From Candidatus Altimarinota bacterium (GTDB lineage Bacteria > Patescibacteriota > Gracilibacteria > BD1-5 > UBA6164), in the NCBI GenBank assembly GCA_028692735.1, contig JAQUWS010000012.1, forward strand, positions 1 through 32,317: a DNA stretch of 32,317 nt, read 5' to 3'. Each line of letters begins with the position of its first letter. Within the stretch, counting starts at the first letter, position 1. The translations under genes were made by a program, and so were the position numbers. Below the pieces are notes generated by a model. The model had not been told where the DNA came from. It saw nothing but the letters and a program-made list of their open reading frames with translations, and did no database searches. Below are positions 17,106 to 26,385 of this stretch, one piece after another.

Positions 17106-18812
17106 ATGAATATAAATGAATTAATCAATAAAAAAATCTCAATCTTATGATTTGGTAAAGAAGGGAAATCAACTCTTTCTTTTCTTCAAAAAATCTGATG
17201 TACAGACCTAACCGTGATAGATAAAAACATAAATGATACCATTGTCATCTCGAGCGAAGTCGAGAGATCTGCCGAAGAAACAAATAGTGAAACTTGAAAA
17301 AATGTAGAACAAAATCCCCATACCCCCCTTTATCAAGGGGAAATAGAAAAGATTCCTCAATTAAAGTTTGAATGACAACAAATTAAAAATATAAAATTTA
17401 TAACATGAGATAACTACCTAGATAATCTAGAAATTTTCGATTACATATTTAAATCACCATGAATCAGTCCATACAAAAACGATTTACTAAAATACAAAGA
17501 TAAATTATGGTCACAAACAAAACTTTTTTTTGAACTATACAAGTGAAATATAATATCAGTTACGCAGACAAAAGGGAAGTCTACAACAGTAACTCTGATT
17601 TATGAATTACTTAAAGATGCTTGATACAAAGTAAAATTAGTCTGAAATATCTGAAATCCAGTACTTGATGAAATAGATTTAATTTGAAGTGAAAATGATT
17701 TAAAGAGTAAAGAAAGAATTAAAAATAATGAGTGTACTTTATCGCCCTGTGTCATCCTCGGGCTTGACCAGGGGATCTCTATAAAGGAAAAACAATTAGA
17801 AAAAACTAAAGATACAGATATTCTAGAAAGTAATAATTCAAATGATACTTCTAAAAGTTCTAGTGAATTGATAGATTCCGGATCAAGTCCAGAATGACAA
17901 CCTAGTGATAATTACGATTTCATTATCTACGAACTTTCAAGCTATATGCTTGAAGACTTAGATAATCACCATAGCTTTATAAGTATATTATGAAATATTT
18001 ATGAAGATCACCTTGATTGGCATAATTGATTTGAAAACTATAAAAATTCAAAACTAAATATTCTAAAAAACTCAAAAAATTTACTTATCTGAGAAAATTT
18101 ATCAAAAGAAATTTTTGAAAAAAAATTCTCTAATATCCGTCATTCCTACGAAGGCAGGAAACTATCATATAGTTTTAAAACCTTCTGAGAAAAATCATCA
18201 TATTATGCTCACGATAAAAACATATTTTCAATTGATTGAAAAAAATTAGATTTAATAATAAATCCAAAAATCCCATGAGAACATAACTTAGCAAATTTTT
18301 GTGCTATTTTATGAGTAACCGATATTTTAAAAATAGAGTATAAGATATTTGAACATACTATAAATAATTTTTCATGACTTCCTCATAGACTACAAAATTT
18401 AGGTATATTTAACTGAATTACTTTTATTGATGATGCTATTTCAACAACTCCAGAAAGTACAATAGAAGCTATAAAAACTTTTAAAATAGACTTAGAAACT
18501 ATTTTTTTATGATGAACAGATAGATGATACACTTTTGATAAATTAGTAGAATTTATAGATGAATCAAATATAAAAAATATTGTATTATTTCCTCAAACTT
18601 GAGAAAATATTTTAAAATCATTAAAAAATAAATCAAAATACAATATTTTACAAACAAAATCCATGCAAGAAGCAGTTTTTTTTGCATACAAAAATACTAC
18701 AAAGTGAAAAATTTGTTTGCTTTCAACAGCATCACCAAGTTATTTTTTATGGAAAAATTATGAAGAAAAATGAGACTTATTTAAAAAATTTATTAAAGAA
18801 TATATGAATTAA
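17106..18812 (+). CDS. murD: UDP-N-acetylmuramoylalanine--D-glutamate ligase MurD with in-frame repeat insertions
   Basis: 568 residues, against about 450 for usual MurD. The enzyme adds D-Glu to UDP-MurNAc-L-Ala in the cytoplasm using ATP. Seen in order: an N-terminal Rossmann-like ISILGFGKEGKST; the P-loop TQTKGKST (153-160); VGNIGNPVLDE; YELSSYMLEDL; GEHNLANFCAILG; GLPHRLQNLG; IDDAISTTPESTIEAI; LGGTDRGYTFDKL; and the C-terminal LSTASPSYFLW. The excess length lies in three segments: about residues 46-95, 190-270 and 345-353. These contain five palindromic elements (separate entries) translated in frame, with a higher GC content than their surroundings. The conserved core is intact, so the enzyme is probably functional. 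The 3' end overlaps the convergent transporter gene by 4 bases. Confidence 0.82.
17244..17270 (+). repeat. Palindromic element A inside murD
   Basis: Head GTCAT, stem ATCTCGA/TCGAGAGAT around GCGAAG, tail GATCT. It is translated in frame as VISSEVERS in the N-terminal domain of MurD. Confidence 0.75.
17323..17342 (+). repeat. Element B inside murD (CCCC/GGGG type)
   Basis: CCCCTT (17325-17330) pairs with AAGGGG (17335-17340). It lacks the GTCAT head and so belongs to another repeat type. It is read in frame as TPLYQGE. Confidence 0.5.
17751..17778 (+). repeat. Palindromic element C inside murD
   Basis: Head GTCAT, stem arms around CTTGA, tail GGGGATCT. It is read in frame as VILGLDQGIS in the loop between GNIGNPVLDE and the YELSSY strand. 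Confidence 0.75.
17873..17898 (-). repeat. Palindromic element D inside murD, inverted
   Basis: On the reverse strand it reads GTCATTCTGGA-CTTGAT-CCGGAATCT. In the murD frame the inverted head GAATGAC includes a UGA, read as Gly, which would be a stop in the standard code. Confidence 0.75.
18139..18160 (+). repeat. Palindromic element E inside murD
   Basis: Head GTCAT, stem TTCCT/AGGAA around ACGAAGGC. The usual tail is lost. It is read in frame as RHSYEGRKL near residue 349. Confidence 0.6.
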
Positions 18813-23340: not shown

Positions 23341-23427
23341 ATTCCAAACTAATTTTTTTAGTCAATTTAAAATTACTAAAAAAACTGAAAAAATAAAATT
23401 AAAAAATAATTACAAAAATTATTTTCA

Positions 23428-23750
23428 ACCATCATCCTGCCCCCCCCACAACCATCATCCTGAACGCCACAACCGTCATCCTGAACTTGTTTCAGGATCT
23501 ATAATACATAAACCAACAACAAAACTTACATAAACTGTCATTCTGAACCCCACAACCATCATCCTGAACGCCACAACCGTCATCCTGAATTCCACAACCG
23601 TCATCCTGAATCCCACAACCGTCATCCTGAACTTGTTTCAGGATCTATAATACATAAATCAACAACAAAACTTACATAAACTGTCATCCTGAATCCCACA
23701 ACCGTCATCCTGCCCCCCACAACCGTCATCCTGAACTTGTTTCAGAATCA
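23428..23750. repeat. Array of palindromic and half-palindromic repeats
   Basis: Eleven units begin with GTCATCCTG or a close variant (ATCATCCTG, GTCATTCTG), mostly preceded by CACAACC. Three are full palindromes (23475-23500, 23621-23646, 23725-23749: stem ATCCTGAA, loop CTTG, stem TTTCAGGAT). The other eight stop after the first arm and go straight into the next CACAACC. A larger unit of 146 bp, including an identical stretch with ACAACAAAACTTACATAAACT-like sequence, occurs at the first and second full palindromes. The array fills most of the 446 bases between rimO and the pseudopilin gene. Bases 23341-23427 hold only an AT-rich stem (TTTTTTAGT with ACTAAAAAA) that may be the rimO terminator. 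Confidence 0.85.
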
Positions 23751-23786
23751 TAAAAATAATAAAAATCCATATAAAAGACTAACTTT

Positions 23787-26034: not shown

Positions 26035-26385
26035 GTCATTCCGTACTCGATACGGAATCTTCCATGTATTGTCCTATCTTGTGTATAATTATTGTTATTC
26101 CTAGCTAAGACTAGGAATCTATAGTTTTACTAAAAATATTTATTTCTCGTAATATACAATACTAATTATTATTTTGTCATTCCGTACTTGATACGGAATC
26201 TTCCTTATATTGTTCTAAATTGTGTATCTAATTGTACCTATATTGTCATTCCTAGCTAAGACCAGTAATATATAGTTTCACTAAACATATTTATTTCTCT
26301 TAAGATACAAATAAGTTTATATCTCATAATTTTTACTAATATGTTTTACCTTGCTAGAGATCCCAGTGTCAAGCACTAGGATGAC
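26035..26385. repeat. Palindromic repeats between groES and groEL
   Basis: Five elements: 26035-26060 (stem ATTCCGTA, loop CTCG), 26094-26120 (stem ATTCCTAG), 26176-26201 (as the first), 26245-26270 (as the second but damaged in the 3' arm), and 26358-26385 (inverted; stem ATCCTAGTG, loop CTTG). The first two plus their spacer recur as the third and fourth, so a block of about 141-151 bp has been duplicated in tandem. They account for most of the 420 bases between groES and groEL; 26271-26357 is AT-rich with nothing else seen. Confidence 0.8.

Follow-up and report, generated by a model that had tools for sequence, protein, structure and literature searches.

The 32,317-nucleotide stretch analysed here (the window) is part of a 1.53-Mb genome in 98 contigs, G000, that uses genetic code 25, in which UGA encodes glycine. 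ORFs of at least 150 codons span 79% of the fetched stretches under this code and 3% under code 11, and the reassignment has been confirmed by proteomics elsewhere in the clade (PMC4032931). On the forward strand, positions 17106..18812 form a reading frame of 568 amino acids, open in code 25, whose best PDB matches are all MurD and whose top 33 Foldseek matches are MurD structures, identifying the gene as murD, for UDP-N-acetylmuramoyl-alanine--D-glutamate ligase. An alignment of 20 MurDs shows the core columns to be conserved, in agreement with the original prediction, which placed five palindromes within an intact murD frame whose conserved motifs they leave undisturbed. All five, labelled A to E, are present; however, they are not five separate elements but two head-to-head dimers and one single hairpin, with B lying inside the first dimer. 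Rfam and tRNA scans of the whole window returned no matches, and hence no known RNA family.

Alignment with 29 relatives delimits three extra segments in this MurD (approximately residues 44-92, 196-267 and 344-356). Nearly all of these relatives lack them, thereby providing element-free orthologous sites, and no conserved, non-palindromic version of the segments occurs among them. The match to relatives breaks cleanly at residues ~43/94 and 192/267, while the third, short insert near 344-356 was revealed by the alignment itself. In an AlphaFold2 model built with 19 relatives (mean pLDDT 77), predicted confidence falls below 50 at residues 43-92, 196-201, 206-267 and 343-354 and exceeds 90 across most of the remainder, and the inserts are placed in loops between core strands or helices. 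Low pLDDT is partly expected for segments to which no relative aligns, so the model supports, without proving, the suggestion that the inserts are exposed, disordered surface loops.

Other murD genes carry palindromes of their own. The sister species G004 has a different dimer at the second murD site, and G072, from another family, has the palindromes GTCCCCCTCAATCGAGGGGGAC and GCCATCCCGATTTAATCGGGATGGC at the first. The site-1 loop is also longer in the murD of G010, and that of G022 contains the palindrome ACTCCCCTTGAAAAAGGGAG in a loop near the C-terminal domain. Given the palindromes of G022 and G072, which belong to other genera, the loops of murD seem to be sites where such elements land repeatedly. 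The MAG contig JAFNPO010000003.1, labelled as the actinobacterium Aeriscardovia, encodes a fragment with 47% identity to the window's murD, possibly through binning contamination.

Composite palindromes in the murD inserts

Each of the first two segments is one composite head-to-head dimer of the form TGTCAT...ATGACA. Insert 1 (17243..17377, forward strand) is a CGTC-type dimer belonging to a 106-bp family, as indicated by family alignment, pattern searches and its absence from the murD of congeners. Its left REP hairpin is element A (17244..17270, forward strand; GTCATCTCGAGCGAAGTCGAGAGATCT), and its right REP (17350..17376, reverse strand) is degenerate and ends in GAA-TGA-C, read as Glu-Gly, segment 1 thus terminating in GAATGAC as well, at 17376. 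The family has at least 12 copies in G000, eleven of them aligning with insert 1, which is itself a 133-bp copy; its extra 27 nt relative to the 106-bp family are shared with its nearest copy (G000:C17:12916-13048) and contain palindrome B (17325..17340; CCCCTTTATCAAGGGG).

Insert 2 (17750..17899, forward strand), which encodes VILGLDQGISIKEKQLEKTKDTDILESNNSNDTSKSSSELIDSGSSPEGQ, is a CGTC-type head-to-head dimer of a 148-bp, mostly genic sub-lineage with in-frame copies in sister species. Element C (17751..17778, forward strand) is its left REP hairpin and element D (17875..17898, reverse strand) its inverted right one, in which CCA-GAA-TGA-C reads Pro-Glu-Gly. It is preceded by an AT-rich lead-in of ~19 amino acids (17694..17749, forward strand), which most relatives also lack and which is possibly the remnant of an older insert. 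Insert 3 (18138..18160, forward strand) is a single REP, element E (18139-18160; CGTCATTCCTACGAAGGCAGGAA), read as RHSYEGR, and its extra residues are missing in relatives. Elements A and E are imperfect hairpins; folded as whole inserts, 1 and 2 have folding energies of -26 and -35 kcal/mol. With the flanking T and A included, multiples of three result for insert 1 (135), for insert 2 (150) and for the 106-bp family (108), but an 89-bp family does not fit, and we rejected an exact multiple of three as a general rule for the insertion unit.

Two further repeats of the window, near 23.4 and 26.0 kb, had been described as sharing this design and do belong to the same superfamily. One is an intergenic or spurious-ORF cluster at 23475..23750 (forward strand), composed of GTCATCCTGAACTTGTTTCAGGATCT and degenerate tandem copies, and the other an intergenic dimer at 26245..26385 that groups with the non-genic copies of the insert 2 family. 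Positions 23419-23751 form a degenerate tandem array in which CAACCGTCATCCTGAAC-type units surround two full hairpins, and the ORF of 110 aa annotated across it is probably spurious.

Copies in the genus and kinship with known repeats

The strict dimer pattern GTCATYC...GRATGAC occurs at 26 places in G000 and at 29, 3 and 34 places in its congeners G001, G003 and G004, respectively, with no match in the congener G002; the reversed pattern, used as a control, gave 0 in all five genomes, and a longer-range pattern found further places. Hairpin-supported GTCAT sites (stem of at least 7, AT first) in the fetched stretches numbered 80, 46, 8 and 31 in G000, G001, G003 and G004, compared with 2, 0, 0 and 0 in reversed sequence. 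A relaxed pattern (GTCATY...RATGAC) was noisy, with 48 matches against 26 reversed, and we therefore limited counting to hairpin-supported copies. Since elements were counted by pattern searches and in the stretches around their matches, not by full genome tiling, genic shares hold for the dimers found by those patterns. More widely, CGTC-type dimers are patchy, occurring in 82 of 154 genomes of the class and 103 of 192 of the phylum, although chance may account for genomes with just one or two matches.

The murD inserts are CGTC-type repetitive palindromes. The CGTC-tagged REPs described by Di Nocera et al. (2013) include RPE-4 (CGTC-4) and RPE-6 (CGTC-1) of R. conorii and are known from Proteobacteria, Chlorobi, Bacteroidetes, Spirochaetes and Thermotogae (PMC3733652). 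The present elements share with them the terminal CGTC/TGTC tag (the base preceding GTC is T in 136 of 162 ends and C in 23), an AT-first stem of ~8-9 bp closed by a loop of 4-5 nt (typically GTC-ATTCCTGC-GAAG-GCAGGAAT), a prevalence of head-to-head dimers and the presence of intragenic copies, with uvrB and uvrD among the hosts. Dimers account for 90 calls and singles for 45 among 135 elements, overlaps included, a ratio that favours dimers because the stretches were picked around them. Unlike the published repeats, those described here reside in Gracilibacteria (Patescibacteria) that read UGA as glycine, about 40% of the dimers are genic, a mostly genic sub-lineage exists, and the 3' tail appears by inspection to be CTN (mostly CTA, CTC, CTT or CTG) where the consensus is CCA.

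Rickettsia palindromic elements had been offered as the precedent, and the parallel holds in so far as these repeats also sit in frame in unrelated protein genes and are compatible with the fold of their hosts. The closest relatives, however, are the CGTC-tagged REPs that include RPE-4 and RPE-6, so that the likeness to Rickettsia may partly be family membership and not analogy alone; Rickettsia uses the standard code, and its elements were compared by their features. REPINs and RAYT-mobilised GTAG REPs likewise have a unit of paired inverted hairpins but differ in tag, which is (C/T)GTC here, and in transposase association, the Y1 transposase being missing in three of the four element-bearing congeners. 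Bacterial MITEs with ORFs, such as ERIC and QMITE1, are also small, non-autonomous inverted-repeat elements capable of in-frame gene fusion (PMC10969869, PMC5896051), whereas our elements have no direct repeats and are used in frame far more frequently. In-frame genic copies, including copies in DNA-repair genes, are known for both the CGTC superfamily and RPEs (PMC3733652; PMC10969869). Our literature search returned no report of such elements in Gracilibacteria or CPR, nor with a reassigned stop codon. New are the host clade, the scale at which dimers are genic, the existence of a sub-lineage that is mostly genic, and an apparent reliance on UGA being read as glycine.

In-frame elements and the UGA codon

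The same elements were expected in other genes, and they are found across the genus and so are not confined to murD: 36 non-overlapping elements lie within ORFs with coding signal on either side, and 32 of these are dimers. Recurrent hosts identified by Pfam are UvrB, with elements at different sites in two species, UvrD (two cases), LigA (two cases at the same site) and HflX (two cases, with different elements at the same site). The remaining Pfam hosts include a Mur ligase that carries two inserts, TatD, PBP, QueA, an ABC ATPase, AcrB, an RsmB/F-type methyltransferase (rsmF) and a TilS-type PP-loop protein (tilS). The elements that match insert 2 from end to end lie in uvrB and a penicillin-binding protein gene of G004 and in a DUF58 gene of G003. 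In G001, tatD and a Mur ligase gene hold shorter versions of 145 bp that also align with it. These relatives of insert 2 sit in frame in the genes of the sister species. Orthologous sites free of the element were also found for the G004 penicillin-binding protein, whose insert is missing in G000-G003, and for ligA, whose insert is missing in G000, G002 and G003. By an ORF-length criterion, 43 of the 102 hairpin-supported dimers of the genus are genic. Where coding sequence flanks a dimer on both sides, the frame is compatible in 29 cases and broken in no more than one (0 broken in a separate count), indicating that gene-breaking insertions are absent or purged.

Several individual genes are of note. 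The Mur ligase of G001 (G001:C43:789-933 and 1467-1557) is MurC-like and contains two in-frame dimers, so that two different cell-wall ligases of the genus have been struck. In an HsdR-like type I restriction gene (G000:C94:3070-3207), tandem RHPEQQN-RHPEQQN units, in frame, run into a palindromic dimer, which suggests local amplification of element ends. At G000:C32:18504-18669, an insert-2-type element lies in gene frame with a second palindrome nested inside it, also in frame, an instance of one selfish element within another.

The original prediction drew attention to element D, whose GAATGAC is readable because UGA is glycine; this observation holds well beyond D. In 28 of the 32 genic dimers the frame used contains at least one TGA, and in 27 the terminal GAATGAC is read GAA-TGA-C, typically as ...PEGQ or ...SEGQ. 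With UGA read as glycine, the terminal GAATGAC becomes Glu-Gly, opening frames that a standard-code host would close: under code 11 the used frame is open in only 4 of the 32 genic dimers, and 17 of the 32 have no open frame in either orientation. Short palindromic elements of selfish appearance have inserted in frame into the loops of murD, whose product is an essential cell-wall enzyme, and into about thirty other Gracilibacteria genes, mostly in frames readable only through UGA as glycine. Of the 102 hairpin-supported dimers of the genus, 82 have an open frame under code 25 compared with 41 under code 11; that is, recoding doubles the number of open-frame elements in this AT-rich genus. Use of the tail TGA (27 observed) exceeds the 19.3 +/- 2.3 expected from an even choice among frames open in code 25, a moderate excess that is an indication and not a test, as copies of the same family are not independent.

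Taken together, these data make a link between codon reassignment and gene-invading palindromes suggestive, though not proven. It is conceivable that recoding is incidental, the phase preference reflecting descent from a few families and the genes of standard-code relatives being entered equally often. Phase is indeed common to the members of a family, and genic CGTC dimers occur both in Rickettsia (PMC3733652; PMC10969869) and in standard-code Patescibacteria, where 8 of 42 dimers seem to lie in genes, a single giant ORF holding five, and none, necessarily, uses TGA; recoding is therefore not required for CGTC elements to reside in genes. However, the genic share in our genus (43/102) and the gain of open frames under code 25 speak against this view, which we consider rather unlikely. 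The giant ORF is a very long standard-code frame of another Patescibacterium (G353:C36:2700-18900) with five apparent in-frame CGTC dimers. A link to recoding would provide a testable case in which a change of genetic code altered which mobile elements a genome tolerates.

The insert 2 family is informative in this regard. In its tree the genic copies cluster (support 0.94) apart from most of the stop-containing intergenic copies, share extra internal sequence, and are all read in one orientation and frame; the cluster also includes two copies without an open gene frame (q_G001C43b and n_G001C20). In the middle parts of insert-2 copies, changes fall at the three codon positions in a ratio of 64:63:51, giving no codon-position signal of purifying selection on the insert peptide, which thus seems unconstrained even though its open frame is maintained. 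We tentatively propose that a niche arose when UGA came to encode glycine, and that this lineage of CGTC dimers (148/145 bp), whose used frame the standard code would close, turned into a mobile element that codes for protein. It would spread between genes with its orientation and frame fixed, and would be distinct from the stop-containing intergenic copies.

Insertion, spread and tolerance

With a probability of roughly 0.85, the murD segments are non-autonomous miniature mobile elements of the CGTC-REP superfamily, tolerated in frame in loops and aided by frames that UGA as glycine opens. We propose that the unit, a linker flanked by two outward-facing hairpins (TGTCAT...ATGACA), would insert repeatedly in this Gracilibacteria genus, both within genes and between them. 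Insertions would be tolerated in surface loops, provided that the host frame is open through the element, and others would be purged; a tolerated element would then be translated as a disordered loop of ~30-50 residues while the enzyme remained functional. We infer that movement occurs by transposition and that the inserts are translated and neutral. If so, these genes offer a natural experiment on enzymes that accept disordered insertions of 30-70 residues, and gene callers and structure surveys applied to Gracilibacteria should meet such inserts often.

The elements have the anatomy of a non-autonomous mobile element, being small and dispersed, with fixed inverted ends, element-free sites and no transposase gene of their own. 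The earlier description of them as mobile accordingly stands as regards multi-copy families and element-free sites, and is inferential as regards the act of transposition, for which neither a transposase nor a target-site duplication was found. Searches for duplications of 2-9 bp at offsets of 0-2 gave none above shuffles. RAYT-type transposition likewise leaves no target-site duplication. The Y1_Tnp profile, representing the sole transposase family screened, had one match in G000 and was absent in the element-bearing G001, G003 and G004; we therefore rejected a RAYT/Y1 transposase as the common cause. Both results agree with the published lack of a transposase associated with CGTC repeats (PMC3733652). 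They are also what would be seen if the elements were copied not by transposition but through exchanges between hairpins, whether by recombination, gene conversion or template switching during replication, as are the tandem copies at C23 and C94 and the nested copy in C32. Against such copying, the exact, recurrent TGTCAT/ATGACA ends and the dispersal to unrelated genes have the look of a defined mobile unit, and we regard it as a possible but doubtful alternative to transposition.

We consider it improbable that the inserts have been domesticated for a function in proteins or mRNAs, such as regulation, slowing or interaction. Different elements do occupy the same loop in different species (murD site 2 of G000 and G004, hflX, ligA), but the middle parts of insert-2 copies have no third-position excess, the host enzymes are unrelated, and the congener G002 is element-free. 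Still less credible is removal of the segments from the mRNA or their bypass by ribosomes, such that they are never translated: the strong end hairpins might permit it, yet almost all of the inserts preserve the reading frame, which neither process needs, and the window contains no known RNA family. That the segments are ordinary lineage-specific expansions of MurD loops with accidental palindromes can be practically dismissed, since the same sequences recur far above chance in unrelated genes and intergenic DNA as multi-copy families, even though loop lengths vary among Mur ligases and the lead-in at 17694-17749 has no recognised repeat. Under the preferred reading of the segments as tolerated, translated mobile elements, tryptic peptides of the insert and junction types VILGLDPGISSK and ELIDSGSSPEGQ are predicted.
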